Shown: in pieces, positions 1,230 to 20,093 of the stretch
Layout: each line of letters starts with the position of its first letter
Numbering within the stretch: the first letter of the stretch is position 1
Source of the DNA: a virus
Reading direction: 5' to 3' (one strand)
DNA length: 20,093 nt
Virus record (IMG/VR): IMGVR_UViG_3300031456_000210
Location: 1-20,093 of that record
Position numbers and translations under genes: made by a program
The notes under the pieces: generated by a model
Told to the model about the DNA's origin: nothing
The model's input: the letters and a program-made list of their open reading frames with translations, nothing else
Databases searched by the model: none

Positions 1230-1598
1230 CTACAGGTCCTTTGCGATCAATCGCGCCAACGGCGCGTAGCCCTTGCTCTTCAATGTGCGCTCCCAGCCCG
1301 CGCGGCCGATGATCAGGGCGCGGCGGCATCCCCGTGCGCGGCCCCAGCCCTCGGCCCTCGGCAGCAATTCGCCTTCCAGCTCCTCACGCGCTCCGCCGGC
1401 GAGCCAGAGCACCAGGCGACGTTCGCGCGGATCATTTTCGATGGCCGCCACCAGCGCGGCGGCGCGGCCTGCCCAGAACTGGGCGTCGCCGGCGATGACT
1501 GCTTCCCGGACGTCGTCCAGCGTATGTGTCCGGCCGGCATGATCGAGCGCCGCGGCGAGCCAGGGCGTGCATCGCGCCCAATCCTCCGCGAAACTCAC
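1230..1598 (-). CDS. GNAT-like small phage protein
   Basis: This 122-residue protein starts with GTG, overlapping the upstream stop as GTGA (1595-1598). The middle holds a hydrophobic strand (RRLVLWLAGGA, about residues 60-70) and a Glu-rich helix. The C-terminal stretch IIGRAGWERTLKSKGY is typical of small acetyltransferase-like proteins found beside podovirus tail genes; T7 internal virion protein A also shows acetyltransferase similarity. Whether it is catalytic is unknown, and no clear acetyl-CoA P-loop (Q/RxxGxG/A) is visible. It lies between the stabilisation protein and the putative ejection protein and is probably a virion or virion-assembly component. Confidence 0.6.
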   Translation of the reverse strand: MSFAEDWARCTPWLAAALDHAGRTHTLDDVREAVIAGDAQFWAGRAAALVAAIENDPRERRLVLWLAGGAREELEGELLPRAEGWGRARGCRRALIIGRAGWERTLKSKGYAPLARLIAKDL

Positions 1599-3127
1599 CG
1601 CTGCCCCGCTGGCGCAACATCGAAAACCGGCCGCCCGATCCGGCAGGCCGTAGGCGCGCTGGCGCCCGCGAACCGCACCTTGAACAGGCGGCCTGAAACC
1701 AGGATGTCCGCCTTGGCGTCCCCCGGCGCCATGGCGGGCGCGGTCACAACCTGCTCCGCGTCCTGCGGATGGCGCCGGGCCGTGACGCTCACGCTCACCG
1801 GTCCCGCCTGGTCCTTGAAGTCGGGCCAGACCTCCCGGACCAGGAGGCAGGTCTCCGGGTCCAGGTAGCCGTCGGCGGTCTCGATGAACCAGGCGAACGG
1901 CTGGCCGTCCGCCGAATCGCCCTTCTCGTGGTGATAGACCTGCCCATCATAGGTGGCGCCCACCGGATAGGCCGATGGCCCGGCATCGACGAAGGCCGTC
2001 CTGGCCATCATCCCGCGGTGCCACGCCCCGGCGTCGGGGCCGCTCAGGCAAAGCGCGACGTAGCGGCTGTTCTCATAGCCCTCGCGGCTGTCCGGATAGT
2101 CGAAGCGGACCTCGGAGAACTCGGCGTTGGACGAGGCGACTACCTTGTCGCCCTGGCTGGCCGCCAGCTTGTCGGCGAACGCCTGCCGGATCGGGCATGG
2201 GATCGGCTCGGCCTGACCGCCGACGGCATAGCGATAGAACTGCCGGTCGGGGCTGGCCCAGAACGCCGTCTGGCCCACCACCACCGCGGCGTTCGGCCCG
2301 ATCAGCCCGCAGTTGCGCCCCACCCGATCGAAGCGCCACGGCTGGTTCAGCGACCCGACATAGGTCCCCAGGAACATCGCATCGCTGGTCCAGACCAACA
2401 TGTACGGCCCGCACATCCGCCCCGCCACGATCCGCCCGCCGCCGGTCAGCACATACTCCCGCGCCGTCGAACCCGACGCCGAAGTGCTCCACTGGGTGTT
2501 GTTGCGGATCGAGGAGTGGCGGATGCAGAGCGGATTGAAGACGCCCGAGACCTCTTCGTTGCAGCCCAGCGCGAAGACCTGGTAGCCGCCGTTCAGCGGC
2601 GCCACCAGCATGTGGGTCACGTTGGCGGGTGCATTCGCCAGGGCCGCCGCCTTGCTGGCCGTCGTGTTGGTCCAGGCGAAGATCGTCTGGTTGCGCGGGC
2701 TGGCCAGCAGCTGCTGTCCCCACGCCCCGAACGACCAGGTCAGCGGGAAATAGTCCGTCGCCGACGGCAGGCCATAGCCGCCCATGCCATAGGCGCCCGT
2801 GCCGTAGCCCGCGCTCCCCGCCCCGTCGATCGCGCCCGGCATGAACCCCGAGGCCGGCGTGATGTCGAACAGCGCCCCGCCCTGCCAGAGCTGCAGCTTC
2901 GAGTGGGTCCCGAAGGCGATGTTCAGCACCGCAGCATTGTCCGTCCACGGAAACACCGTGCGGCAGACGCCGGTCAGCGCCTGGCCGGTCAGGCCCTCCC
3001 AGCCGCCGATCACCTGCGCCCGTCCCAGCCGGAACCGCACATTGGACCCGTCGGCCCAGCGCCCGCTCCCGACAAAACTGGTGTCGTCGCCGTTCAGACC
3101 CGGCGGAGGATCGAGAGGAATACGCAT
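1595..3127 (-). CDS. Packaged-DNA stabilisation / tail nozzle protein (P22 gp10-like)
   Basis: The chosen ATG gives 510 residues beginning MRIPLDPPPGLNGDDTSF. An in-frame TTG at 3199 would add 24 residues, but they are unlike the rest and would overlap the plus-strand hicA start, so I reject it. The N-terminal pattern (PPG...D.....GRWADGSNVRFR.GR....GGWE) and the Trp/Gly-rich repeats that follow suggest a beta-propeller-like fold. They match alphaproteobacterial podovirus proteins that take the place of P22 gp10, which plugs the portal after DNA packaging. It starts the leftmost late-gene block after cargo region A. Family placement comes from recalled patterns and gene order, so gp10 equivalence is probable rather than proven. 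Confidence 0.68.
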   Translation of the reverse strand: MRIPLDPPPGLNGDDTSFVGSGRWADGSNVRFRLGRAQVIGGWEGLTGQALTGVCRTVFPWTDNAAVLNIAFGTHSKLQLWQGGALFDITPASGFMPGAIDGAGSAGYGTGAYGMGGYGLPSATDYFPLTWSFGAWGQQLLASPRNQTIFAWTNTTASKAAALANAPANVTHMLVAPLNGGYQVFALGCNEEVSGVFNPLCIRHSSIRNNTQWSTSASGSTAREYVLTGGGRIVAGRMCGPYMLVWTSDAMFLGTYVGSLNQPWRFDRVGRNCGLIGPNAAVVVGQTAFWASPDRQFYRYAVGGQAEPIPCPIRQAFADKLAASQGDKVVASSNAEFSEVRFDYPDSREGYENSRYVALCLSGPDAGAWHRGMMARTAFVDAGPSAYPVGATYDGQVYHHEKGDSADGQPFAWFIETADGYLDPETCLLVREVWPDFKDQAGPVSVSVTARRHPQDAEQVVTAPAMAPGDAKADILVSGRLFKVRFAGASAPTACRIGRPVFDVAPAGQR

Positions 3128-3188
3128 CGGCTCATCCGTGCTAGCATTTTGTGATTGCAAAGACGCGAAGCGGCGCCAATATGATTGC

Positions 3189-3443
3189 GTGAACAGCAAG
3201 CATGCTCGGACCTTACGGGCGATCTATCGGCAGCCTGTTTCGGCCACGATCTCGTGGACCGACATCGAAGCGCTGTTCAAAAGCGTCGGCTGCGAGACGA
3301 TTGAAGGACCCGGCTCAGCGGTCTCGTTCAGATACGGGCAGCTGGTCGAGTTCTTCCATCGGCCGCATCCCGCCAAGGAAGCGAAGCAATATCAGGTGCG
3401 CGCCGCCCGGGCGTTCCTGGCCAGGATCGGAGTCGCCCCATGA
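3189..3443 (+). CDS. hicA: HicA-family toxin (type II TA, mRNA interferase fold)
   Basis: This 84-residue protein starts at GTG. The ATG at 3181 runs into a stop after three codons, and no strong Shine-Dalgarno is visible. The pattern NSKHARTLRAIY..PV......W.DIEAL....G......GPGS....... FHRPHP.KE belongs to the proteobacterial HicA subfamily that starts MNSKH. HicA toxins bind and cleave mRNA through a dsRBD-like fold. The classical G-S-H motif is absent here (GPGSAVSF), and conserved His residues lie in FHRPHP (about residues 56-61), as expected for this subfamily. The stop overlaps the hicB start as ATGA. The gene is on the plus strand, against the phage operon. Confidence 0.88.
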   Translation: MNSKHARTLRAIYRQPVSATISWTDIEALFKSVGCETIEGPGSAVSFRYGQLVEFFHRPHPAKEAKQYQVRAARAFLARIGVAP

Positions 3444-3775
3444 GTACGATGACCTACAAGGGCTACGCGGCGCGCGTCGAGTATGACGATGCCGACGGCA
3501 TCTTCTTCGGGCGGGTGGCCGGATTGCGCGATGGGATAAACTTCCACGGCCAGACGGTGGATGAGCTGCGCGCCGCATTCCGAGAGTCAGTCGATGGGTA
3601 TCTCGATGTCTGCGCACGTATCGGCAAGACGGCGGAGAAACCCTACTCTGGCCAGCTCATGGTTCGCGTAGCGCCCGAGGTTCACGCCAAGGCCGCCCTC
3701 GCCGCCGAGCTCGCCGGCAAGAGCCTGGCCAAGTGGACGGAAGAGACCCTGCGCCAGGCCACGGCCGAACTTTAG
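3440..3775 (+). CDS. hicB: HicB-family antitoxin
   Basis: The product is 111 residues. Residues 1-60 carry the HicB partial RNase H-like fold (YKGY.ARVEYD..DGIFFGRV.G..D.I.F.G..VDEL..AF.ESVD.YL). Residues 73-110 form a ribbon-helix-helix DNA-binding segment (MVRVAPEVHAKAALAAEL). HicB neutralises HicA and normally autoregulates the operon. Toxin-first order with a 4-base overlap is usual for hicAB. Next comes the shortened glycosyltransferase-like gene, 11 bases after the hicB stop. Both partners look intact, so the system is probably functional. Confidence 0.9.
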   Translation: MSTMTYKGYAARVEYDDADGIFFGRVAGLRDGINFHGQTVDELRAAFRESVDGYLDVCARIGKTAEKPYSGQLMVRVAPEVHAKAALAAELAGKSLAKWTEETLRQATAEL

Positions 3776-3786
3776 GCAATCGCTCA

Positions 3787-4305
3787 GTGCCGGCTGCAAG
3801 TCCTTCGATCTATCTGGCGACCATCTGCTACGGCGGCATGGCGCACGCCGAGTACATGGCCGCGCTCCTGGCCTTCCGACCCGCCTGCGCCGCCAGGGGC
3901 GTTGGCCTGCACATCGACCTGGCCGGTGGCGAAGCCCTGGTCGGCCGCGGCCGCGCCACCCTGATGGCCAAGTTCCTGATCTCCGACGCCACACACCTGC
4001 TGTTCGCAGAGAGCGATCGGGGGTTCAGCCCGGCGGCCGCCTTCGCCCTGCTGGACGCCGATCAGGGCGTCTCCGGAGGCGGTCCCGAAGATGGCCTCCT
4101 GATGATCCGCCGCCGCGCCGCCCAGCGCATGACGGACGCCCACCCCGAGCTGCGCGCCAAGCTCGGCGACATGACAGGCCTCGCCGTATCGGAGGCCACC
4201 TTCGTCTTCGACCCGGTGGTTGAGGCGGATACCGGTCGCTACCTCACCGACTTGGACGCGTTCCGGGCACGGTGGCAGAGGATCACCAAAATACCAGAAA
4301 ATTAG
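3787..4305 (+). CDS. Internally shortened glycosyltransferase-like protein
   Basis: The GTG start gives 172 residues; longer in-frame starts would run back into hicB. The N-terminal part (PSIYLATICYGG.AH..YM, then AGGEALVGRGRATLMAKFL, then THLLFAESDRGFSP at about 72-85) matches a family of small GT-A-type proteins common in caulobacterial phages and genomes. In those proteins the last motif normally reads as an acidic metal-binding D-x-D/S-D site. The next segment passes from VSGG straight to LLMIRR, and from memory about 50 or more residues usual in the family are missing. The end (ARWQRITKIPEN) also departs from the family. It is probably a decaying or recombinant gene. Its 3' part is repeated after hipA. 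Confidence 0.7.
   Translation: MPAASPSIYLATICYGGMAHAEYMAALLAFRPACAARGVGLHIDLAGGEALVGRGRATLMAKFLISDATHLLFAESDRGFSPAAAFALLDADQGVSGGGPEDGLLMIRRRAAQRMTDAHPELRAKLGDMTGLAVSEATFVFDPVVEADTGRYLTDLDAFRARWQRITKIPEN
4156..4275 (+). repeat. Left copy of glycosyltransferase 3'-segment repeat flanking hipBA
   Basis: This 120-base segment encodes 40 residues from AKLGDMTGLAV to AFRARW inside the shortened glycosyltransferase-like gene. It aligns without gaps to 6145-6264. Counting by hand gives 28 base differences but only 6 residue differences, most at third positions. The two copies are therefore diverged alleles of one gene family and not a fresh duplication. The hipBA operon sits between them. Confidence 0.85.
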
Positions 4306-4313
4306 TCGCCAAA

Positions 4314-4430
4314 CTTGACGATTTAATCAACTTTTGTGATATTATTCATCATAATAGAAGACTTATTGGATATTGAATGAATTTCCACAATTCTTCACTC
4401 TTGACGATTATCATCGACTTGCGTATTTAA
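4314..4430 (+). promoter_or_regulatory. AT-rich hipBA promoter/operator region with a repeated TTGACGATT site
   Basis: The 145 bases before hipB (4306-4450) are strikingly AT-rich next to everything around them. The decamer CTTGACGATT occurs twice, at 4314-4323 and 4400-4409. Each contains a TTGACG box resembling a -35 element. For the first, GATATT lies 17 bases further on (4338-4343), or TATTAT at 19 bases (4340-4345). For the second, TATTTA lies 17 bases further on (4424-4429). These could be tandem promoters or two HipB operators; HipB-type repressors bind repeated sites upstream of their own operon. Which role applies cannot be decided from the sequence. Confidence 0.5.
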
Positions 4431-4450
4431 GTCACCGAAAGTGGAGACTT

Positions 4451-4801
4451 ATGAAGTTCACAAACCTTCTTTCCGATGAGGCGGCACAGACCGAATTGGG
4501 CGGTCGCCTAGCCCAGATTCGCCTGGGTCGCGGCTGGACTCAGGCTGAACTCGCGGCCTCTGCGGGGGTCTCGAAAAGTACGGTCGAGCGCCTCGAGGCC
4601 GGCGCTTCCACCCAACTCACAAACCTTCTGAGATGCCTTAGGGCGCTTGATCACCTGGACGGCTTGGAACGCCTGCTGCCCGCGGCGATCCCCGGCCCAA
4701 TAGATTTGCTCAAGCGACACGGCAAAATCCGCCAGCGCGCCCGGCCGACCGCCGTCCCGCCGGAGCCCAGCAAGCCGTGGGCCTGGGGCGATGAAAAATG
4801 A
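4451..4801 (+). CDS. hipB: HipB-like XRE-family antitoxin / autorepressor
   Basis: The ATG at 4451 gives 116 residues and is preceded by GGAG six bases upstream, so I prefer it to the in-frame TTG at 4373. Residues about 18-75 are a lambda-repressor-type helix-turn-helix (LAQIRLGRGWTQAELAASAG, then VSKSTVERLEAG). The tail is basic and Pro-rich (RARPTAVPPEPSKPW). Its stop overlaps the hipA start as ATGA. In HipBA systems HipB binds DNA operators and holds HipA inactive. The low-GC promoter immediately upstream fits autoregulation. Confidence 0.87.
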   Translation: MKFTNLLSDEAAQTELGGRLAQIRLGRGWTQAELAASAGVSKSTVERLEAGASTQLTNLLRCLRALDHLDGLERLLPAAIPGPIDLLKRHGKIRQRARPTAVPPEPSKPWAWGDEK

Positions 4802-6105
4802 CCACCGTCGCGGAGGTGCAGCTATGGGGCCGCCGCATCGGCGCCGTGGCCATTCAGGATGATGACCCTGCCGCCGCGTTCCAGTACGACCCGGCGTTCA
4901 TCGGCAGCGGCATAGAGGTCGCGCCGCTGATGATGCCGCTCGGCCGCGCGATCTTCACGTTTCCGGCGCTCAACCCAAAAAGCTTCCACGGTCTCCCGGG
5001 CCTACTGGCCGACGCGCTCCCGGATCGATACGGCAACGCCCTGATTGACGCATGGCTGGCGACCCAGGGCCGTACACCCGAGAGCTTCAACGCCATCGAG
5101 CGTCTCAGCTACACGGGAGCCCGCGGCATGGGCGCGCTTGAGTTCGCGCCGGCGACGGGGCCTCGCCCGCGCAACGCCAATCGAATCCATATCGATGCCC
5201 TCGTCGAATTGGCCTCGGAGGTGCTGACCCACCGCAACGACCTGAAGGCCTCCTTCGCGGACGAACACAAGGCCGGGGCCATGCGCGACATCCTGCGGGT
5301 CGGCACCTCGGCGGGCGGCGCCCGCGCAAAGGCGGTGGTGGCCTGGAACCCCCTGACCGACGAGGTCCGCTCGGGCCAAGTCGATGCCGGTCCCGGCTTT
5401 GAATACTGGCTCCTGAAGTTCGATGGCGTACAGGGCAACAAGGACCGCGAACTCGCCGACCCGGCCGGCTACTGCGCCGTCGAATACGCCTACTCCGAGA
5501 TGGCCCGCGCCGCCGGTATCGAGATTTCTCCCTGCCGGCTTTTGGTGGAGGGCGGTCGCCGTCACTTCATGGCCAAGCGGTTCGATCGGCTCGACGGCGG
5601 CGGCAAGCTGCACATGCAGTCGCTCGCCGCCCTGGCTCACCTCGACTTCAACGACGCCAACGCCGCGTCCTACGAACAAGCGTTTCTGACCATGCGCCGG
5701 ATGGGCCTTCCGATCGGCATGCTCGAAGAGCAGTTCCGCCGGATGGCGTTCAATATCGTCGCTCGGAACCAGGACGATCACGTCAAGAACATCGCCTTCC
5801 TGATGGATCGCACCGGCACGTGGCGACTGTCGCCGGCCTTCGATATCACCTGGAGTTACAATCCCTCGGGCGACTGGACCGCCCACCACCAGATGTCCAT
5901 GAACGGCAAGCGCGACGGATTCGACCGCAGCGACTTCGACGACTGCGCCGACACTCTTTCGCTCAACCGGCGTCGCACACGCGCGATCCTCGACGAAGTT
6001 CAGGCCGCCGTCGCCCAGTGGCCCCGCTTCGCAGACGCCGCCAACGTCGACCCCCACTGGCGCCGCAGCATCGACCCCAGCTTCCGCGAATTTCCCGCGG
6101 CTTGA
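4798..6105 (+). CDS. hipA: HipA-family serine/threonine kinase toxin
   Basis: The 435-residue length is close to E. coli HipA (440). Domain order is complete: N-subdomain with LPDRYGN (74-80) and TGARGMGALEF (106-116); the glycine-rich ATP loop GTSAGGARAK (169-178); FMAKRFDR (257-264); the catalytic loop NQDDHVKN (324-331); and a metal-binding AFDITWS (347-353). Family members phosphorylate targets such as glutamyl-tRNA synthetase, halting translation and giving persistence. All visible catalytic residues are present, so the kinase should be active. The gene ends directly against a fragment of a glycosyltransferase gene in the same reading frame, separated only by the hipA stop codon. Confidence 0.92.
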   Translation: MTTVAEVQLWGRRIGAVAIQDDDPAAAFQYDPAFIGSGIEVAPLMMPLGRAIFTFPALNPKSFHGLPGLLADALPDRYGNALIDAWLATQGRTPESFNAIERLSYTGARGMGALEFAPATGPRPRNANRIHIDALVELASEVLTHRNDLKASFADEHKAGAMRDILRVGTSAGGARAKAVVAWNPLTDEVRSGQVDAGPGFEYWLLKFDGVQGNKDRELADPAGYCAVEYAYSEMARAAGIEISPCRLLVEGGRRHFMAKRFDRLDGGGKLHMQSLAALAHLDFNDANAASYEQAFLTMRRMGLPIGMLEEQFRRMAFNIVARNQDDHVKNIAFLMDRTGTWRLSPAFDITWSYNPSGDWTAHHQMSMNGKRDGFDRSDFDDCADTLSLNRRRTRAILDEVQAAVAQWPRFADAANVDPHWRRSIDPSFREFPAA

Positions 6106-6306
6106 AGCTCTGCCGACGCTGCGCTCGCGACAGCCGAATTCCTCGCCAAACTCGGCGACATGACCGGCCTGGCGGTCGGCGAAGCGACCTTCGTCTTCGA
6201 TCCGATGGTCGATGCGGAGACAGGACGCTATCTCACGGACCTAGCTGCGTTTCAGGCGAGATGGCGAGCTTTAGGCCCCGGGGTAAGTTCACCGCGCGCG
6301 AGGTGA
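6106..6306 (+). pseudogene. 3' fragment of a glycosyltransferase-like gene fused behind hipA
   Basis: The frame of hipA stays open after its TGA up to a TGA at 6304-6306. From about 6136 it encodes AEFLAKLGDMTGLAVGEATF and continues to AFQARWRALGPG, the C-terminal segment of the glycosyltransferase family also present at 3787-4305. There is no start codon or ribosome site for this piece and no N-terminal domain. It is a remnant left at the right-hand junction of the hipBA block. Its end (after RWRALG) keeps slightly more of the family sequence than the left copy does. Confidence 0.8.
6145..6264 (+). repeat. Right copy of glycosyltransferase 3'-segment repeat flanking hipBA
   Basis: This is the partner of 4156-4275: ungapped over 120 bases, with 92 identical bases and 34 of 40 identical residues by hand count. 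It starts 40 bases after the hipA stop. Confidence 0.85.
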
Positions 6307-9062: not shown

Positions 9063-9691
9063 AGCCCCGCGCCCGCGCCCACGAAGGGCGAGGCCAGTTC
9101 GGTGGTCAGCGTCCGCGCCGCCCGCGACCGCGCATCCTTGGAATTGATCTCTTCGACCGCGCGGCCCAGCCGCGCTTCGTAGGCGGCCGACAGCTCCGCA
9201 TCGCGCAGGAACGGCGCGGCCTCGCTGAGCGTCGCGAACAGGTAGGCGTCGGGATAGTCGCTCAGCAGCGCGTTGGTCGGCGCCGCGTCCGAGAGCGCGA
9301 ACTTCGCCAGCATCCGCAGCGTGAAGCCATAGGCCTGGTCGCACGGCCGGTCGAAGGCCAGCGTCGCCCCGTCCACGGTCCACGCCGCCGGCTCTCCGCG
9401 CAGGCTCGACGCCCCCACCAGCCTGGGCTCGATGAAGGCCAGCGCCTCGCGCCCCGCCGCCCGGGTGATCCACAGCGCCAATGGCTCGGCGAACCCCGCC
9501 GGCAGCGGCAGCGTCCGCGCACCGACCACGCCGGTCAGCGCGGTCTCCACCTCGGCCAGCCTGGCCCGCAACACGCGGTTCAGCCGGGCCTCGGCCAGGG
9601 TGATGAACTCGGGTATCCGCGCGGTCAGGTCCGCGCGCACCAGCCAGTTGGCCGCCGCCGCCTGCATCTCGGCATAGGTCGTGATCGCCAT
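9059..9691 (-). CDS. Head-tail adaptor protein (P22 gp4 position)
   Basis: The product is 210 residues. It begins MAITTYAEMQAAAANWLVRA and carries LTARIPEFITLAEARLNRVL, the recognisable N-terminal signature of the phage adaptor family common in alphaproteobacterial podoviral prophages. The body is helical, with SDYPDAYLFATLSEAAPFLRD near residues 135-155. Adaptors of this kind ring the portal and connect it to the tail, like P22 gp4. The ATG at 9691 is preceded by AAGGAA. The gene is separated from the coat gene by the plus-strand exported-protein gene, and its leader faces that gene's leader (9692-9776). Confidence 0.75.
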   Translation of the reverse strand: MAITTYAEMQAAAANWLVRADLTARIPEFITLAEARLNRVLRARLAEVETALTGVVGARTLPLPAGFAEPLALWITRAAGREALAFIEPRLVGASSLRGEPAAWTVDGATLAFDRPCDQAYGFTLRMLAKFALSDAAPTNALLSDYPDAYLFATLSEAAPFLRDAELSAAYEARLGRAVEEINSKDARSRAARTLTTELASPFVGAGAGL

Positions 9692-9776
9692 GCAATTTCC
9701 TTCACGCTGGTTGCGTTTTATCTTGAAGACATTCTCTGGTTGTGCATGTCTTCGTTCGGGGAACGGGGAAATCTCA

Positions 9777-11204
9777 ATGCACATCAAAGTGGCCGGCGTT
9801 GTCGCTGGCGCCGTCATCGCCTTGTGTCTGGCGCAACCCGCGGCTGCGGCCGAGGCGACGACGCCGTCTTGCTTGCCGGAAGCGCCCAAGCCGACCTGGT
9901 CGACCAAGTTCCGGCCGCCCAAGGGCGTTCAGAGGAGCCAATCCAAGGCGGACTTCAACGAGGGCCGCCTCGGTGCGCGGGGATGTCAGATCGAGGCCTT
10001 GAGGCAAAGTCTCGCCAGCGGCGCGATGGACCCAACCGACAATCCGGAGGCGGTTGCATACTGGGAGGTCAACCGGCGCGCGGCCGAGATTGCGCGCCTC
10101 TATCACTCGCGCTCAGGTCGCCAGCAGTGGTGGATGGACACCGCCTCCAAGGGTGTCGCCCTGGGCGCCGCCGGCTATCTGCTCAGCGGCGGCGCAGGCG
10201 CCACGACGCAGGCCTATTGGGGCTACGGCGCGCTGGCGTTCGTGCTGGTCGCCCAGTTCAACGCCTACGAACCAACCCGCGATCTCTTCTTCGGCGGCTC
10301 ACTGGGGGTCTACGAGATCGCCGGCCGTTACAAGGTGATCCGCGACAACCGCAACAACTTGGCGGCGATCGTGAAGCCCCCGGCCGGGTCAGCGCGAGAC
10401 GACGCGCTGAAGGCGGCCAAGGCGACTTGCATCGATCTTCGACGGGAAATTCCGGCCATGGAATCCTGGACACCGAACCGGGGCGACAAAGTTGCGATCC
10501 TGCCGGAAGCCCGTCGGGTGCTGGCGGCCTGTCGGGACTTTGAGTCCAACTTTTCCGCCCTGAAGATTCTCGTGGAGGCGCCGAGCATCCAGGATGCCGC
10601 TCTGAGCGCGAAGTATGCGACCGACATCCTTGCCCTCGACGCCAACGTGGTCTTGCGAGACCAGGACCTTCGCTACACGCCGTTCGAAACCCTGACCGGT
10701 CTGGCGGCCGCGCCCTTCGACGCGGCCAGCACGCTGCTCACCGGCGACAACGGCAAGAAGGCCATTGACGGCCTCAAGACCCAGGCGGCCTTTGCCAACC
10801 TCGATCTTGATCTGTCGCCGATCAGTATTCCTGGCGTGCCCAAGGCCACCGCGGCCTACATCGCCTTGGCGCCGGCGGTCTACGGCCGTCTGGAGCCCAC
10901 CGTTGTTCGCGAGGCCGGCACGAAGAAGGAGCCGAAGGATCCCGACGCCAAGACGGCCTCCGCCGCGGTCGGCAAGCTCGACGACGCGGTTGCGGGGCTC
11001 AATGGCGCCTACGGCGAAGTGGCCAGCGCATCCAAATACGCCACCGATCTGTTGACCATGGCCGCGGCCAGCCACCTGAGCTTCACCTACGACGCCACAA
11101 CCCGATACATAAAGGTTGGACCGTTGGCCCCTCCGGCCGAGCCGTCGTCGACAGGGCCGAAGACTGCCGGCGCGCCCGCGGGAACGCCGGCAGCCCAGCC
11201 CTAG
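9777..11204 (+). CDS. Exported protein of unknown function (prophage moron)
   Basis: The ATG at 9777, preceded by GGGGAA, gives 475 residues and places a clean signal peptide at the start: MHIKVAGV, a hydrophobic core, then QPAAAAEA with probable cleavage after Ala about 24-26. A second hydrophobic region (about residues 120-158, rich in Gly/Ala, with YWGYGALAFVLVAQF) could be membrane-inserted. The rest is helical, with several Cys. The C-terminus is Pro/Ala-rich linker (APPAEPSSTGPKTAG). I recognise no family. It is on the plus strand between the adaptor and coat genes and is not obviously virion-related. Cell-envelope modification or superinfection exclusion would fit such a gene, but that is conjecture. 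Confidence 0.75.
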   Translation: MHIKVAGVVAGAVIALCLAQPAAAAEATTPSCLPEAPKPTWSTKFRPPKGVQRSQSKADFNEGRLGARGCQIEALRQSLASGAMDPTDNPEAVAYWEVNRRAAEIARLYHSRSGRQQWWMDTASKGVALGAAGYLLSGGAGATTQAYWGYGALAFVLVAQFNAYEPTRDLFFGGSLGVYEIAGRYKVIRDNRNNLAAIVKPPAGSARDDALKAAKATCIDLRREIPAMESWTPNRGDKVAILPEARRVLAACRDFESNFSALKILVEAPSIQDAALSAKYATDILALDANVVLRDQDLRYTPFETLTGLAAAPFDAASTLLTGDNGKKAIDGLKTQAAFANLDLDLSPISIPGVPKATAAYIALAPAVYGRLEPTVVREAGTKKEPKDPDAKTASAAVGKLDDAVAGLNGAYGEVASASKYATDLLTMAAASHLSFTYDATTRYIKVGPLAPPAEPSSTGPKTAGAPAGTPAAQP

Positions 11205-13861: not shown

Positions 13862-14695
13862 TCATCGTCCCTTCGCCATCTGGGCGTTGCGCCGCGCCAT
13901 CCAATCCTTGGTGGCCAGTTCGTCGCGAACCCCGCCGCCGCCAGCTCCGGCGGCGCCCACCTGTACCGCGGGACGGACGCTCTGGGCCTGGGCGAGCGAC
14001 CGGGCCTGCCCGTCCTGCCGGTTCGCTTGGTCGGCCTGGTAGCCTTTGTGCAGCAGCTTCCAGAGCCTGGGATCGGCCATCTGCGACAGTTCCTCCAGCG
14101 TGACGCCGAAGGCCTGGGCGTATTCCACCAGCTTGTTCGCAACCTCCGGCGACCAGCCCTCGATCTCGCGTTGCAGCGTCCGGCCGGTCTCGGCCATCTG
14201 TTCGGCGGCTTCGCGGGCGGCCTGGAGGTCTCGCCGCGACTCATGGTGGCTGACCGCATAGGCCAGACGTTCGCGCGCCTGGGACAGATGCTGGAACCGG
14301 CCCCATAGCGCCTGCGCCGCGTGCGGGTCCTGCGCGGCGTAAGCCTGCCAGTCGACGTCCCGGAAGCCGTCGATCTGGTGGTCGAGCGCGGCCAGCGTCA
14401 CCCGGTCCTGACTCACCCGGCCGATGGCCTGGGCCTGCTCGGCCAGCGCCCGCCGTTCCGCCTCGGCCGCACGCCGATGCTCGGCCAGCTCCTGGGTCTT
14501 GCGGGTGTAGTCCGCCTGCCGCAGGAACGCGCCCTTCAGCGCGCCCGGCAAGGTGTGCACCTGCCCGTCGAGTTCCACCTCGAAGGCATCGTCCGCGTCG
14601 TCCTGATCATCAGGTTCGCCCGCGTCCTCGCCGGCCAGCAGTTGCGCAGGCGCGAGGTCGTCCTCGCCCACGATGTTGGCGTCTTCGTTTTCCAT
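13862..14695 (-). CDS. Head scaffolding protein
   Basis: The 277-residue product has a very acidic N-terminus (MENEDANIVGEDDL to about residue 38). A conserved FEVELDGQVHTLPGALKGAF / RQADYTRKTQELAEHR region follows, then a long charged coiled-coil, and a short basic tail (WMARRNAQMAKGR). The acidic head, helical body and basic C-terminus are the standard plan of phage scaffolds such as P22 gp8, whose basic end binds coat. Position after portal and before coat agrees. The ATG is preceded by AAAGGA. The stop is followed closely by the IS remnant, but the C-terminus looks intact. Confidence 0.82.
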   Translation of the reverse strand: MENEDANIVGEDDLAPAQLLAGEDAGEPDDQDDADDAFEVELDGQVHTLPGALKGAFLRQADYTRKTQELAEHRRAAEAERRALAEQAQAIGRVSQDRVTLAALDHQIDGFRDVDWQAYAAQDPHAAQALWGRFQHLSQARERLAYAVSHHESRRDLQAAREAAEQMAETGRTLQREIEGWSPEVANKLVEYAQAFGVTLEELSQMADPRLWKLLHKGYQADQANRQDGQARSLAQAQSVRPAVQVGAAGAGGGGVRDELATKDWMARRNAQMAKGR

Positions 14696-15020: not shown

Positions 15021-16928
15021 TCACCTCTGCATCGCCTTCAGCCGATTGGTCTCGGCCTCGAAGGCATCGATCTCAAGCTTGCGGGCCTCGTGGCTGCGGT
15101 CGGCCTGCAGGGCCGCGATCTGCGCCTTGGCCGCGTTCAGCGCCTGGGCCAGCTTGGCCATCTGCGCCTGCGCCGCCTGGGCCTCGGGCGAAGCCCCTCC
15201 GGCCAGCTTCGGCGGCAGCAGCGCCTGCAACCGGCTCGCCACCTCGTCGGCGCCCGGCCAGTCCAGGTTCTTGGCCAGCAGGTCTCCGATCGCCGGCGCC
15301 GCGGCCGGATAGGCCCGGATCAGCTCGATCATCTGGTTGGCCGCCTCCTCCCGGCGGCTGGTGAAGCTGGGCCCGGCGCGCACAATCAGGTCGTACTTGC
15401 CCACCGTCAGGTCGAAGATCTTCTCGATCTTGCGCACCTGCCCGGTCGGATCGCCCGGCGCGGCAGGGGCGCCCTGCCCCGGCGCCTGCGGCTGGTTCAC
15501 CGGCACGGCCTTGGCCTCCCCGTCGGGTCCAAGGATCCGCACCACCCGGGGCGTCGCATAGACCTTGGGGATCAGGTCCAGCAGGATCCGGCCCGCATGC
15601 CGCATCGCGCGATTCAGGTTGTCGATGTAGTGGAAGGTCGAGGTGTCGCCCTGCCGCTGGCGCGCCATGATCGCGCGCCCCGAGATCTCGTTCGACCGTG
15701 CGCCGAGGCTCGCGTCATAGAGGCCCATGATCGCCTTCATGTCGTCCGACGCGTTCATCGCCTCCTGCAGCGCGCCGGCCGGCGCGCCGGCGAACGGCTG
15801 CCGCATGGGCGGCTCGGGGCCGTCATATTCGATATAGGCGTGGGTCTGGGTGTTGGCCGTGGCCCACTTGGCCGAGTCCGTCTCGAACGCCCCCTTGCGC
15901 CCGATAAACGGCGTCTTGGGCGCCAGCGCCACCAGCTCGGTGGACGTGGTGCGCCAGTAGTTGAACATCCGCTGCGGGTCCTTGGCGTCGCGCACCAGGC
16001 TGCGCAGCCGCCGCCGCCCGTCCACGTGCAGCTCCTCGCCATAGACCGGCACGATCGGGATGAACTTCCCGGCCCACTCGACCGTCTCCAGCACCTCGGC
16101 GCCGGTCAGGATACGCTGCGTGACCTTGTGGCTGGCCACGCTCCGCGGCCGGCCGACGACCTTCACCCCCAGCGCATCGAACATCGCCTTCTGCTTCTCG
16201 TAGACCGCCAGCTCCACCACCTGGCCGTCCGACAGCGCCACGATGGTCCGCTTCACCGCCTCGCGGATCCACTGCTCGGCCACCATTACCCGGTCGCCGT
16301 CGAGCCAGGGGCCGGTCAGCGAGGCGTAGCTGTCCGCCGACCAGTCCACCGGATCGGCCCCCTTCCAGCGCGCCTCGAAGGCCGCCTTCGGCAGGGTGTC
16401 GACCACGAAGGCCGAGTTCCAGTCCGAGGAGTCCGCCGCCGTCCCGTCCGGGTCGCCATAGATCGAGAACGGGTTGGCCACCCGCTCCACCACCAGGTCC
16501 TGGTCGAACCCGTCGTCCGACGCATAGCGGGTGTTGATCCGGAAATAGCCGAACCCGCCGGTCACCGCGAAGTCGAGCGCCGTGTCATAGGCCACCTCGG
16601 CGTCCGACGACTGCTCGATGTGCCGGATCAGCCCGTTGAACACCTCGGCGGTCTCAGGGTCGGCCGCATCGTCCACCGGATGCACCACGATCGCCGGCTT
16701 GTTCTGCCGCGCGTCATTGACCACCTGGCGGATGAAGGCCGGCAGCCGGTTGATCGTGAGGCACGGTCTCCCATCGAGGTCCCGCTCGCGCCGGATCGCC
16801 TCCGGCCACTGCTCGCCGAGCCTGGCGAACTTCAAGTCGTCCAGCGCGTCGCGCCGGTTCTCGGCCTCGGCGTCCGCCGCCCGCTCGAACGCCTCGCGGG
16901 CCTCTTTCAGGATGTCGTCGTCGGACAA
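15021..16928 (-). CDS. Portal protein, P22 gp1-like
   Basis: The 635 residues compare with 725 in P22. The N-terminal DDLKFARLGEQWPEAIRRER and GRPCLTINRLPAFIRQVVND match the P22-type portal signature. FGYFRINTRY, PIVPVYGEELHVDGRRRLRS and LYDASLGARSNEISGRAIMA are further family landmarks. The C-terminus (after residue 560) is a long Ala/Gln/Glu coiled coil, like the P22 barrel helix. Twelve subunits form the DNA entry ring at one capsid vertex. The start is TTG at 16928, seven bases after GAGG; the nearby ATG (16943) is followed at once by a stop. A terminator-like hairpin and a strong promoter-like site lie upstream, and a broken second copy of the 5' end is at 18572-18747. Confidence 0.88.
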   Translation of the reverse strand: MSDDDILKEAREAFERAADAEAENRRDALDDLKFARLGEQWPEAIRRERDLDGRPCLTINRLPAFIRQVVNDARQNKPAIVVHPVDDAADPETAEVFNGLIRHIEQSSDAEVAYDTALDFAVTGGFGYFRINTRYASDDGFDQDLVVERVANPFSIYGDPDGTAADSSDWNSAFVVDTLPKAAFEARWKGADPVDWSADSYASLTGPWLDGDRVMVAEQWIREAVKRTIVALSDGQVVELAVYEKQKAMFDALGVKVVGRPRSVASHKVTQRILTGAEVLETVEWAGKFIPIVPVYGEELHVDGRRRLRSLVRDAKDPQRMFNYWRTTSTELVALAPKTPFIGRKGAFETDSAKWATANTQTHAYIEYDGPEPPMRQPFAGAPAGALQEAMNASDDMKAIMGLYDASLGARSNEISGRAIMARQRQGDTSTFHYIDNLNRAMRHAGRILLDLIPKVYATPRVVRILGPDGEAKAVPVNQPQAPGQGAPAAPGDPTGQVRKIEKIFDLTVGKYDLIVRAGPSFTSRREEAANQMIELIRAYPAAAPAIGDLLAKNLDWPGADEVASRLQALLPPKLAGGASPEAQAAQAQMAKLAQALNAAKAQIAALQADRSHEARKLEIDAFEAETNRLKAMQR

Positions 16929-16948
16929 GGCGCAGCCTCACATGAAAA

Positions 16949-16975
16949 CGCCCGCGCGAGCGAGCCCGGCGGGTG
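16949..16975 (-). terminator. Terminator/attenuator-like hairpin in the portal leader
   Basis: On the minus strand a 7-bp stem (CACCCGC with GCGGGCG, one G-U pair) around a 13-base loop is followed directly by TTTTC. It lies downstream of the promoter-like site and 20 bases before the portal TTG start. It could stop transcripts arriving from the toxin/immunity genes, or act as an attenuator that needs antitermination in the late phase. Confidence 0.5.
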
Positions 16976-17070
16976 GAAAGGCGGCTCGAATGGAGCCGCG
17001 ACGATCGATCGGAAGGAGCGTAGCGGAGCCTCACCGCAGGGCGGCGGGCGCACCAATCAACGCTGACAAA

Positions 17071-17099
17071 ACTCTAGCAAAAGCGCGCGCGGAAGTCAA
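17071..17099 (-). promoter_or_regulatory. Promoter-like site upstream of portal
   Basis: On the minus strand TTGACT (17094-17099), a 17-base spacer and TGC-TAGAGT (17071-17076) form a good sigma-70 site. The extended GCTAGAGT fits the caulobacterial housekeeping -10 (GCTANAWC-like). Transcription would start near 17064, leaving a leader of about 135 bases that contains the hairpin at 16949-16975. Confidence 0.6.
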
Positions 17100-17115
17100 G
17101 AACAAAGAGAGAACA

Positions 17116-17595
17116 TCAATAGGCCCGGAAGTGATCCAGCCACCCCAGCTCCGTTTCGAGATCTGCGAAGCTCCGGAGGTTCGACACCTGGTCCAGCTTC
17201 TGCTCCAAGGTCTCGTCCTCCCAGACGTAGACGTCGGCATGGGCCCTGATGCCGTCCGCCACCCGCGACTTGAACCACTCGAGCGATACGGAAGGCTGGG
17301 CTTCGAGTTCGTGCTCGATGCGCGACACACCGGCCATGAAGCATGACAAGCCCAGAGACAGACCCACCCCGCCAATCCGCTTGACCGATACGACCCGCCA
17401 GGACCGGCCTGCGGAGTCGACCAACTGCATGTCATCTTGCATCCGGTCCTTAAGCGTATCACGTCCGCACGTGGTCAATTCGCTCTTGTCCCGAAAGCTC
17501 CACATGTCGGCGTCCGTGGTGAAGCCAAAGACCGGGTAGATGAATTCCACGTCTGTCGATTTCACCGCAGGCCCCACCTTCACGACCTGGAACAT
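17116..17595 (-). CDS. Probable immunity protein for the upstream toxin
   Basis: The 159 residues start at an ATG 14 bases after the toxin stop. Longer in-frame starts would overlap the toxin gene out of frame. It has no signal peptide or membrane segment. Features are FEFIYPVFGF-like beta strands near the start (VEFIYPVFGFTTDADMW), a small Gly-rich hydrophobic patch (GGVGLSLGLSCFMAGV) and an acidic C-terminal helix (EDETLEQKLDQVSNL, DLETELGWLDHF). I know no family for it. Size, acidity, cytoplasmic nature and position straight after a nuclease toxin are the usual marks of an immunity gene. Confidence 0.62.
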   Translation of the reverse strand: MFQVVKVGPAVKSTDVEFIYPVFGFTTDADMWSFRDKSELTTCGRDTLKDRMQDDMQLVDSAGRSWRVVSVKRIGGVGLSLGLSCFMAGVSRIEHELEAQPSVSLEWFKSRVADGIRAHADVYVWEDETLEQKLDQVSNLRSFADLETELGWLDHFRAY

Positions 17596-17609
17596 ACCAG
17601 GAACTACGC

Positions 17610-18497
17610 TTAGCGCAAGGGCCGCTCGCCGTAAGGCGCTGGGTGGGTTGGTCCCTGGAAGGGCGATGCTGGAAGCGCCTTCGAAAGACTCTCGACGCCT
17701 TGGACGAGCCGTGGGCCAAGTCCTATAGCCACCGTCTTCATCCACCGCGGCGTGCCGACCCATAGTTTCTGGAGATCGTCGTATTCTGGCAGGCCGAGAT
17801 AGGGTCCATGGAGCCTCATGTGGTCCGGGTGCGGCAGGACCTTCATGAAGGCAGGATGGTTTCTCCAGTTTTCGGCTTTGCGGGGAATGCCGTTCAATTC
17901 GAAGGTGTGATGAAGATCGTGACCTGCCGGCGTGACACCACGACGTTTCATCTGCGCGCGCACAGCATTTCCCGTCATCTTTCCGGTATTCCATGCCGTC
18001 CGCCGGGAAACGGCCCCAGCGACTCCCACACCCGTGTCGATTAAAGCAACGTCGGCCACAGCAGAGACCCCGTCACCGAGAGCCGCCAAGATGTCTCCTC
18101 GCTTGGCCGCCTCATAGGCGTCGATTATCGGGCCCGTGACGGGTAGATGGCGCAGCCCCTCCGGATCTAAGGGCGTCGCGCTCCTTGCGTCCTGCGCCTC
18201 CCGCATCGCTGGGGAACCACCCCAGGCCGTTGATGGCAGTTGGGAACTGCTTCCATCGGACAGGCGATCGTCGCCGTTGCTCCCAGCGATCACCTCGTCG
18301 CCATCTCCGCCGCCGATCAGGTCACTGCCTTGTGCCTGCAGGTTGCGAAGGGTTTGCCATTCATCGATGGGAAGGTCGTCCGCGACGCGGAGGCGTTGCG
18401 CGTTGCTCGGAGCAGTCCGGCTAAGCTGGAGGGCGCGCGTGCGCTGCCAGTCTTCCATCGGCAGGTCGTCCGTAAGGGTCGCGCGTCTCTGTCTCAC
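17610..18497 (-). CDS. Polymorphic toxin with HNH/Endo VII (LHH-type) nuclease domain
   Basis: The GTG at 18497, seven bases after GGAGA, gives 295 residues. An ATG at 18578 lies within the portal remnant and lacks a ribosome site. Residues 10-24 and 40-54 are two copies of DDLPxxxWQxxRxLQ. An RTX-like stretch GGGDGDEVIAGSNGDD follows (62-77), then a small Gly/Ala pretoxin-like segment (about 119-165). The C-terminal toxin core has AGHDLHHTFELNG (191-203), RNHPAF (212-217), H226 and RLHG (228-231), the arrangement of LHH-type HNH/Endonuclease VII toxins that cut DNA. No secretion domain or signal peptide is present, so the delivery route is unclear. A probable immunity gene follows. Confidence 0.68.
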   Translation of the reverse strand: MRQRRATLTDDLPMEDWQRTRALQLSRTAPSNAQRLRVADDLPIDEWQTLRNLQAQGSDLIGGGDGDEVIAGSNGDDRLSDGSSSQLPSTAWGGSPAMREAQDARSATPLDPEGLRHLPVTGPIIDAYEAAKRGDILAALGDGVSAVADVALIDTGVGVAGAVSRRTAWNTGKMTGNAVRAQMKRRGVTPAGHDLHHTFELNGIPRKAENWRNHPAFMKVLPHPDHMRLHGPYLGLPEYDDLQKLWVGTPRWMKTVAIGLGPRLVQGVESLSKALPASPFQGPTHPAPYGERPLR

Positions 18498-18571
18498 GAG
18501 AATTCTCCAGGGAATGGGTTGCAGGTGCTCGGAGTTCGGAGCCAGATGCCCATGATCGACAGCCCTTCCGC

Positions 18572-18747
18572 CGCCCATCGTTGACCGCCGAGCGGATGAA
18601 GAGTGTCGGCCGGTTACCGGTCAGCCAGGGCCACCCGTCGAGATCTCGCTCCCGCCGCGCTGGCTGCGTAGTTGCTCGGGCAGTTCCATGAACTTCAGGT
18701 CGTCCAGCGCGTCGCGCCGGTTCTCGGCCTCGGCGTCGGCCGCCCGC
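18572..18747 (-). pseudogene. Broken second copy of portal 5' end
   Basis: The minus strand reads ADAEAENRRDALDDLKF as in the true portal. A frameshift follows, then RERDLDGWPWLTGNRP and FIRSAVNDGR in another frame (true portal: RERDLDGRPCLTINRL and FIRQVVNDAR). The start codon and first 15 or so codons are missing, and homology ends near 18572. It cannot make portal protein. It directly precedes the toxin gene. Confidence 0.85.
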
Positions 18748-18863
18748 GCGAGCGAGCCCGGCGGGTGGAAAGGCGGCCCTCACATCAGGCCGCGACGATC
18801 AATCGGAAGAGCGAACCGGAACCTCACCGCACAGCGGCAGGCGCACCAATCAACGCTGACAAA

Positions 18864-18892
18864 ACTCTAGCAAAAACGCGCAGTGGCCTCAA
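18864..18892 (-). promoter_or_regulatory. Promoter-like site upstream of toxin/immunity genes
   Basis: This is the duplicated version of the portal promoter: TTGAGG (18887-18892), 17 bases, TGC-TAGAGT (18864-18869). The -10 region is identical to the portal copy; the -35 differs at the last two bases (TTGAGG for TTGACT). It points into the portal remnant and then the toxin gene. Confidence 0.55.
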
Positions 18893-18965
18893 GAACAAAG
18901 TAGGAACTTTTTGCTCGCCGAACGTCATGGCTTGCGCTAGCCTGGCCCTTTCAAAAGGGTGCCGC

Positions 18966-19646
18966 ATGCGCCTGTTATTCATCTCGATTCTTGTCTCACT
19001 TTCGACCGCGCTTGGCGCGCATGCGGCATCGAAGGCCCCGCACGCCGCTCCGGATCCCTGGGAGTTCGAGCGCGCCAGAACCAATGAGTATGGCTTCTAC
19101 CCTGTGCCGGAGTTCCTGCGGGAAGCAGGCCTTCGCCCGCCGCCGGGCAGCCCTCGGATCGCGGGCGAGCGTTCCCAAAGCGGGGTCGCCTACCGCACGG
19201 CGCGGCGGGCCTTGATCAAACAGGGATTTATCCCCGTGAAGGTTCTGTCGCAGGACTATGGGAGCGAAGCCTGCGGTGGGACCGGGGCAACTTGCAGCGC
19301 CTTTCCTGAACTCCTGCAGTGTACGGCGGGGGGTGTGCAGCACTGCGCATTTCTCTATCGGCAGCGGGCAACCGGCAGGTATTGGATCATCTCCACCATA
19401 GGCGAGGAGGGCGTGGCGCCCGATGTCGACTTCCGCCGGCTAAGGTGCTGCGGCTATCGTCCTGCGACCGCGCACTATCTCGACGGCGTCGAGATCTTGC
19501 GGTCGAGCGGTCGAGCGTTCAGGTTTCAATATGCTCACCCGCCGGAGGCGGACACGACACCTCTCTGTCGCGACAACGGCGGAGCCATACCCTGTTGGAT
19601 CAAGCCACCTGCTGGCTATGGGAGAAAGGGCGGGCCGACCCGCTGA
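18966..19646 (+). CDS. Secreted Cys-containing protein of unknown function
   Basis: The ATG at 18966, preceded by AAAAGGG, gives 226 residues. The signal peptide MRLLFISILVSLSTALGAHA ends at a likely A-x-A site around residue 20. The mature part contains about eight Cys, clustered in SEACGGTGATCSAF, LLQCTAGGVQHCAF, RLRCCGY and TTPLCR...IPCW, suggesting disulfides in the periplasm or outside. I recognise no family. It points away from the R2 repeat and toxin promoter, and meets the muramidase-like gene tail to tail with 33 bases between. A nearby inverted repeat CCCTT-TCAA-AAGGG (18946-18959) covers its ribosome site. Confidence 0.7.
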   Translation: MRLLFISILVSLSTALGAHAASKAPHAAPDPWEFERARTNEYGFYPVPEFLREAGLRPPPGSPRIAGERSQSGVAYRTARRALIKQGFIPVKVLSQDYGSEACGGTGATCSAFPELLQCTAGGVQHCAFLYRQRATGRYWIISTIGEEGVAPDVDFRRLRCCGYRPATAHYLDGVEILRSSGRAFRFQYAHPPEADTTPLCRDNGGAIPCWIKPPAGYGRKGGPTR

Positions 19647-19679: not shown

Positions 19680-20093
19680 TTAGCGCCAGCCGCCTGGACC
19701 CTCCGGCAAACGACCATCATCGAACATTTGGTTGAACTCATCGTTGGCGGCTTTGATTCCCGTCTGAACGTCCTGGTTTGAGACGTTGGGCTGGCGCTTG
19801 ATGCTCTTATTTCGATCGCTGTACGGGTGCCCGTCCAGGTCCGAAAGACCATCCCATCTCTTCGCCAGGCGCGCCTGGAACTGCAGCGCGGTGATTTTCC
19901 CCTGCAGAAAATCATCATAGCCCCGTTCGAAAAGGATTTCCCGCGCCAGGCGATCCTGCAGCTCCGGTGTGAACTTCTCTGACCCCGACAACTTCAGCGC
20001 GCCTCGGAATTGGTTCAGGGTGTCTTTCGTCATCTCGTACTTGCCGACCGGCGTGTTGGGGCTACCACGGCGAAGCATCTCGTCCTGCAGCTG
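19680..20093 (-). CDS. Phage muramidase-like domain, 5' end outside window
   Basis: The frame is open through the right edge (LQDEMLRRGSPNTPVGKYEM...), so the true start is outside and at least 138 residues are visible. VGKYEMTKDTLNQF corresponds to the GRYQ...W/L region of lambda R-type lysozyme and related muramidases. KFTPELQDRLAREIL, ERGYDDFLQGKITALQFQAR and LAKRWDGL follow that family's C-terminal half (SP..QD..AL..I...G......GDI...I......WASL). The catalytic Glu would lie in the missing N-terminal part. It could be the endolysin or the lytic domain of a larger ejection protein. Confidence 0.65.
   Translation of the reverse strand, partial: QLQDEMLRRGSPNTPVGKYEMTKDTLNQFRGALKLSGSEKFTPELQDRLAREILFERGYDDFLQGKITALQFQARLAKRWDGLSDLDGHPYSDRNKSIKRQPNVSNQDVQTGIKAANDEFNQMFDDGRLPEGPGGWR

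Follow-up and report, generated by a model that had tools for sequence, protein, structure and literature searches.

Polymorphic toxins with a scaffold-like motif as candidate capsid cargo of a P22-like phage

The virus record IMGVR_UViG_3300031456_000210 (20,093 bases, analysed over its full length and referred to here as the window) carries the portal and scaffold genes of a P22-like phage on its minus strand. Upstream of the portal gene, the locus belongs to a tandem array of polymorphic toxin/immunity cassettes within the head gene module; the putative toxins are an HNH-like protein and a muramidase-like protein, the latter cut by the window end. Both toxins of this phage begin with a short motif that statistically resembles the C-terminus of the head scaffolding protein. 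On balance, such toxins probably enter procapsids through mimicry of the scaffold and reach the next cell along with the DNA. The wider proposal of a capsid-loading code, whereby P22-like phages of Caulobacteraceae pack diverse toxins and hydrolases by means of copies of the coat-binding tail of the scaffold and maintain them between terminase and portal as exchangeable cassettes headed by promoters, is tentative and falls just short of probable. A motif common to toxin and scaffold makes the route by which phage polymorphic toxins reach their targets simply testable.

A P22-type portal and a head scaffolding protein are both matched in the window, which places its head genes in a P22-type module. 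The portal protein (15021..16928, minus strand) has the conserved domain PF16510 (E-value: 2e-207). The scaffolding protein (13862..14695, minus strand) is identified by phrog_3927 (E-value: 5e-31) and by its structure model; 10 of the 16 Foldseek matches at E-values of 0.001 or lower carry the name scaffold or scaffolding protein. A search with its sequence gave no match to the solved P22 scaffold in the PDB. Scaffolds of the window type are present in 41 of 299 genomes drawn from the family of record G005. The last 20 codons of the gene (13865-13924, minus strand) encode the motif DELATKDWMARRNAQMAKGR, in which W265 is invariant and R269 nearly invariant among 24 scaffolds. In the structure model this motif forms a separate C-terminal helix (residues 262-276) behind a low-confidence linker.

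Two units resembling this C-terminus are found at the start of the HNH-like toxin: DDLPMEDWQRTRALQL (tag 1; 18423..18470, minus strand) and DDLPIDEWQTLRNLQA (tag 2; 18333..18380, minus strand; also DNA repeat D10), with position-specific scoring matrix (PSSM) scores of 16.0 and 21.1, respectively. The muramidase-like toxin likewise starts with two units, and all four follow the pattern D-x-[LM]-[PA]-[MI]-x-x-W-Q-x-x-R-x-[LM]-[QE]. The two toxins of this one phage have alike N-terminal repeats and a glycine/aspartate-rich motif.

For comparison, the portal protein was used to fetch 41 bacterial loci, whose record titles are mostly Phenylobacterium or Caulobacteraceae, and the 80 best viral loci out of 204 relatives; these are given L numbers here, and L045 and L097 are one phage, while the window and L002 are siblings. 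An early iterated hidden Markov model (HMM) built from the tag units ran into scaffold C-termini, which it then admitted; it was treated as a lead only and replaced by scaffold-only profiles. To guard against circularity, these were made from 115 scaffold open reading frames (ORFs) with 87 distinct C-terminal peptides, and cassette cases were never part of a profile. At a PSSM score of at least 14, the motif is detected in 7 of 29 cassette ORFs, one of them encoding the window toxin, versus 4 of 2,398 others (Fisher p 5e-12). This count leaves out L002, whose toxin is the same as that of the window, and the second copy in L127; with both retained, the figures are 8 of 30 and 5 of 2,399. Of the four matches outside this set, one is a further ORF in the terminase-portal slot (L019), and the other three lie in the portal-scaffold gap (L021, L084 and L088). 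No more than one cassette ORF was picked by any of 300 column-permuted PSSMs, and a threshold-free rank test of the scores gives p 3e-6. With the scaffold-only HMM at E-values of 1 or lower, 8 of 11,333 non-scaffold ORFs are matched, versus none among shuffled and one among reversed sequences. Seven of these lie in head gene slots (L006, L019, L021, L024, L084 twice and L119 5387); the eighth is a fragment of scaffold-like sequence in L081. In L119 (Phenylobacterium sp. J367), a candidate coding frame behind the upstream leader copy contains SDDLPVGDWMR (HMM E-value: 0.4). Across 2.0 million translated residues, scores of 12 or more are found at 22 sites; L131, an addition to the scan, gives a 23rd, which is its scaffold. 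The sites outside the slots are scaffold-like fragments (L081, L037), L119 11484 and, in L085, a frame of 54 residues. Statistically, the motif of the toxins is shown to resemble the scaffold C-terminus.

The motif is found on at least four C-terminal types in the terminase-portal slot: HNH-like, muramidase-like, L008-type and L020/L084-type, the last grouped by eye. It is also present at the C-terminus of hydrolase-like proteins encoded between portal and scaffold, and this gap is possibly a second cargo slot. Hydrolase-like proteins of this kind occur in L003, L011, L013, L042, L043, L057, L084, L088 and L103; their motifs score from 7.9 to 27.3, with only L084 and L088 reaching 14.

The events proposed to lead from cassette to target cell are the following. 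At the head of each of the two cassettes lies one copy of the promoter and leader of the portal gene and, because this promoter serves the portal, the toxins would be made during procapsid assembly. Since the C-terminus of the P22 scaffold binds coat protein, the toxin motif would do so likewise, and the toxin would be built into the procapsid as cargo; by the same analogy, the window-type scaffolds may themselves use the motif to bind coat. Some of the cargo would stay in the mature head and pass with the DNA into the next cell, and there its nuclease, muramidase or hydrolase activity could hit a competitor or a resident element. The immunity proteins would shield the producing or lysogenic cell. 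Cassettes would turn over by exchange and insertion before the portal gene, perhaps aided by the repeated leader.

A number of observations weigh against this model. As the P22 scaffold exits the capsid at maturation, tagged cargo might exit too. The motif is N-terminal in the toxins of the terminase-portal slot and C-terminal in scaffolds. It is not universal: 22 of the 29 cassette ORFs have scores under 14. The lysozymes of L012 and L110 belong to this group, and so do the HEXXH-like proteins of L015 and L088 and the muramidase-like proteins of L019, L025 and L045. The cutoff of 14 was set with the scores already in view; at 6, 8, 10 and 12, 10, 9, 9 and 8 of 30 cassette ORFs are selected versus 71, 40, 14 and 5 of 2,399 others. 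The window toxin and the muramidase-like toxin of the sibling are picked by the PSSM only, the former being unlisted by the scaffold-only HMM at E-values up to 10 and the latter having an E-value of 5. The 115 profile ORFs include at least one wrong-frame artefact (L012 1892-4663) and one that is cut off (L051). L085 and possibly L119 11484 are chance matches. An additional search covered 37 regions of Caulobacteraceae genomes, 25 further viral contigs and L168; of its leader-bearing regions, only L168 and L234 are new, and neither is tagged outside the scaffold. The positive cases therefore all come from one set of loci, to which the extra regions added none. Further chance matches are found in L198 (score 15.6; one of the 37 regions, 975,121 residues that are mostly re-fetched known loci) and in the portals of L238 and L239 (20.8; 351,464 residues). 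Finally, the structure model of the window toxin has a pLDDT (predicted local distance difference test) of 35, and was set aside as unusable.

Several of these points would suit ordinary late-expressed morons, that is, toxins made at induction and released by lysis in the manner of bacteriocins, with the tryptophan motif a generic helix that has no role in packaging. The promoter copies and immunity-like genes fit such morons, as do the cassette ORFs under the motif threshold and the failure of the HMM to detect the window toxin. However, the enrichment of a scaffold-only profile in ORFs of the cassettes and of the portal-scaffold gap, and the same motif at the C-terminus of the hydrolase-like proteins in the second slot, argue against it, and the moron explanation is considered rather unlikely.

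The proposed capsid loading has parallels in characterized phage systems. Two C-terminal helices of P22 gp8 are described as binding the coat N-arm, and loss of the 11 C-terminal residues of the scaffold as abolishing coat binding (PMC9965877). CpmB of SaPI1 has the coat-binding C-terminus of the 80alpha scaffold and is reported to bind coat likewise (PMC5644958). It is similar to the toxins described here in being a second protein with the C-terminal motif of a scaffold, the likeness here being one of sequence alone; it is presented in that source as redirecting capsid size, rather than as the toxin or cargo proposed here. P22 shells take up cargo fused to scaffold according to PMC11626933, and the tagged toxins would be the natural counterpart of this man-made loading. 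If the proposal is correct, the motif would also serve as a marker for capsid cargo in other phages. The internal proteins of T4 similarly consist of a short conserved tag on diverse proteins, and the tag directs them into the head precursor; as described in PMC3012670, it targets the scaffolding core, whereas the motif here is like a scaffold C-terminus and its partner is likely to be coat protein. MuF toxins (PMC5576092) are also encoded by temperate phages near portal and terminase genes, and their loading into heads and delivery with DNA are given as the hypothesis of the authors. A further likeness to the present proposal is that PMC5576092 places toxin domains on a head-associated protein; the difference is that the N-termini here have in common a short scaffold-like motif and that the genes form arrays behind promoter copies. 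No MuF match was obtained in Pfam or PHROG for the window toxin, nor for other cassette toxins (ten proteins each in Pfam and PHROG). The Bxa system of Bacteroides (PMC11699363) similarly pairs a prophage-encoded polymorphic toxin family with immunity proteins; as portrayed there, Bxa is an ADP-ribosyltransferase from another phylum. A literature search by titles and the starts of abstracts, with bioRxiv and most subscription journals outside its coverage, found no description of scaffold-tagged toxins.

The HNH-like toxin (17610..18497, minus strand; 295 amino acids, aa) starts with GTG. It has the motif LHH ... NHP ... HMRLHG (an xHH motif recognized by eye), and the pattern HH...NH...H is nearly invariant across its homologues. 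No match to it is found in Pfam (E-value threshold: 0.1), PHROG or PADLOC scans, and NCBIfam gives only a meaningless match below cutoff (E-value: 0.07). The label LHH-type, given in a first-pass annotation of this DNA, follows from the motif, and no curated nuclease model matches; membership in the LHH or HNH-Endo VII families is putative, the name being taken from the motif. One homologue (L030) matches the SitA6 polymorphic toxin model TIGR02269 far below cutoff (E-value: 0.01). A search of the 'phages' collection with the toxin gave nothing at E-values of 0.01 or lower.

The putative cognate immunity protein (17116..17595, minus strand; 159 aa) is encoded next to the toxin and is unnamed by the curated libraries scanned; no homologue was found in the plasmid collection. 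Homologues of the toxin occur in L088, L122, L042, L043, L030, L031, L092 and L005, which gives nine phages or contigs if the window, L002 and L127 are taken as one. An immunity homologue lies beside the toxin in five of the nine (the window group, L088, L122, L042 and L043, the last two near-identical at this pair), and L030, L031, L092 and L005 have the toxin and no recognized immunity partner. A further pair, found by alignment of the immunity protein and with its toxin recognized by eye, lies among other structural genes downstream in L131. L029 encodes two immunity homologues (7-474 and 715-1227) with no recognized toxin, which are possibly orphan immunity genes. The name polymorphic toxin is given for the shared N-terminal part on different C-terminal domains (HNH-like, muramidase-like and two further types in relatives) and for the adjoining immunity gene, the latter including all six muramidase-like cases. 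In both kinds of cassette, toxin and immunity protein are putatively paired through co-occurrence alone.

L002 (record G001), the sibling of the window phage, extends further upstream; where the two overlap, they are 99.5-99.8% identical. The order in G001 is promoter, muramidase-like toxin, convergent immunity gene, R2, HNH-like toxin, immunity gene, R1 and portal, R1 and R2 being the two copies, one intact and one broken, of the portal promoter region. The first promoter in this order belongs to a third leader copy, which is 92% identical to the R2 leader and heads the muramidase-like gene; upstream of it are the terminase gene (named by content and position) and a gene for a PAS and HWE histidine kinase protein. 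Because of this gene order, the right end of the window is the tail of a first cassette; by comparison with G001, the window cuts through a cassette array. An HWE-type histidine kinase gene also lies between terminase and leader copies in L127 (1783-3552), with homologues in L082, L005 and L018, and is an odd gene for a head module.

A leader model obtained by iterated nhmmer detects copies before the portal gene, before the scaffold gene in some lineages and before toxin-like ORFs in the terminase-portal gap. Copies before the scaffold gene are seen in L023, L037, L039, L081, L086, L087, L089, L101, L107 and L118. Counts of copies were based on 96 loci (69 with the terminase on the locus and 27 without it, having more than 1 kb upstream). 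At least two promoter copies lie ahead of the portal gene in 21 of the 96, with a maximum of four in L088; given L045/L097 and the window with L002, these are not fully independent cases. Sixteen of these 21 hold, in the gap, one of eight toxin, immunity or hydrolase families searched; in L006, L020 and L084 a tagged ORF takes this place, and L013 and L046 lack both. The first-pass annotation had named relatives with a single copy and no toxin as support for its reading, and among terminase-bearing loci with exactly one copy, 18 of 20 (L082 and L083 among them) lack all eight families; the exceptions, L042 and L043, have the homologous toxin/immunity pair. Where the gap holds no promoter copy, one of the families is present in 3 of 39 loci (L038, L086 and L092). 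Judged from gene content, the terminase-portal gap in P22-like phages of Caulobacteraceae is a slot for toxin/immunity cassettes, a promoter copy often stands at their head, and the R1/R2 repeat is not mainly the scar of a single event. Other cassette ORFs encode Phage_lysozyme (PF00959) proteins in L012 and L110 and HEXXH-like proteins (motif recognized by eye). A second N-terminal type, PFSVPDPLGxAWDxM, is found in nine cassette ORFs with E-values below 1e-8, six of them seeds and a seventh a duplicate of a seed protein.

In the window, R1 (16702..17107, minus strand) comprises the intact promoter, the leader and the first portal codons. R2 (18566..18900, minus strand) comprises the promoter/leader copy that heads the second cassette, followed by a decayed remnant of the portal 5' end (18566-18754). 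By blastn, the promoter/leader blocks (17107-16949 and 18900-18741) are 86.3% identical over 161 columns (186 bits) and the portal-codon blocks (16891-16702 and 18754-18566) 74.2% identical over 190 columns (119 bits). The blocks are collinear, and 200 block shuffles of R2 peak at 28.3 bits. R1 and R2 are real diverged copies, as the first-pass annotation had it, and both ORFs of the HNH-like cassette lie between them, the stop codon of the immunity ORF (17116-17118) adjoining R1. In the alignment, R2 is short of approximately 71 nucleotides (nt) relative to R1, the portal start codon and a leader T-run among them, and its portal codons are split over two frames.

The same annotation had proposed that a single recombination or tandem duplication put one toxin module before the portal gene and left the broken portal copy behind. 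Portal codons are indeed present in R2, and only in the window and its sibling (2 of 102 loci; four others have matches of 17-30 nt, the size expected by chance). However, promoter copies recur ahead of the portal without portal codons in other lineages, and the arrays of G001 and L088 further weaken the proposal; as the main account, a one-off duplication was rejected. The toxin is also found without a flanking repeat in part of the relatives, L042 and L043 having the pair with one promoter copy and L030, L031 and L092 the toxin with none. Nor was a donor identified for R2, a point that the annotation had raised as a test: its portal piece is 73-77% identical to the 23 best-scoring portals, its own among them, so that no candidate donor exceeds 77%, and comparison by eye with nine relatives gave no chimeric breakpoint in the portal gene. 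A single event is improbable for the locus as a whole and survives as an account of the portal remnant, which looks like an old recombination scar confined to the window lineage. This remnant is in keeping with the insertion of a cassette together with a new leader and portal start, by which the old start was displaced upstream; in the cargo model, it would be a relic of one such turnover.

A joint of the same topology is found elsewhere in the window, and is a point in favour of recombination. A HipB/HipA pair (4373-6105) is bracketed by 4145-4276 and 6134-6265. The intact phage gene 3733-4305 adjoins it, and a broken in-frame copy of the 3' end of this gene (codons 139-182, 80% identical as protein) lies on the far side. 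L132, the sole relative found with gene 3733-4305, has no HipA on its 8.6 kb. Both joints would fit homology-assisted, one-sided insertion.

The first cassette is represented in the window by the C-terminal part of the muramidase-like toxin (19680..20093, minus strand), identified by homology and by G001, and by a putative periplasmic immunity protein (18969..19646, plus strand) with an N-terminal signal peptide recognized by eye. The two genes are convergent. A family search found muramidase-like homologues in six phages only (the window group, L019, L022, L024, L025 and L045/L097), and a homologue of the convergent signal-peptide gene adjoins them in all six. That these proteins and the lysozymes are virion lysins or endolysins, with the convergent gene a lysis inhibitor and the nuclease cassettes a separate matter, would agree with a PHROG endolysin match to the muramidase-like protein (E-value: 1e-14) and with PF00959 in L012 and L110, but is very improbable given the narrow distribution of the muramidase-like protein and the N-terminal repeats and promoter leader that it has in common with the HNH-like toxin of the same phage.

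The promoter before the portal gene is sigma70-like (TTGACT-17-TAGAGT with an extended -10; 17071..17099, minus strand), its core being given by iterated nhmmer across relatives, and is the sole such match within 16600-19100. The position of TTGACT in R1 is occupied by TTGAGG in R2, where L002 has TTGACG. After the -10, GTCAGCGTTGATTGGTGCG is identical in 10 of 10 aligned leaders. A terminator-like hairpin and T-run at 16949-16965 close the leader directly before the portal start, in a scan in which the number of terminator-like hits is similar to that expected by chance. The portal leader is possibly an antitermination leader, of which R2 lacks the T-run; an unusually stable structure of the leader RNA was rejected (z -0.12). 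IS1595-family elements in L002 (approximately 2783-5833) and L003 (approximately 819-3785), 89% alike over 979 nt, are inserted at the same position, between the -35 and -10 of the portal promoter (the R1 promoter in L002). Their 8-bp target duplications are CTTCCGCG and CATCCGCG, and the window has the empty site. A 507-aa ORF with no Pfam or PADLOC match is located at 9681-11204 on the plus strand, amid the minus-strand head genes.

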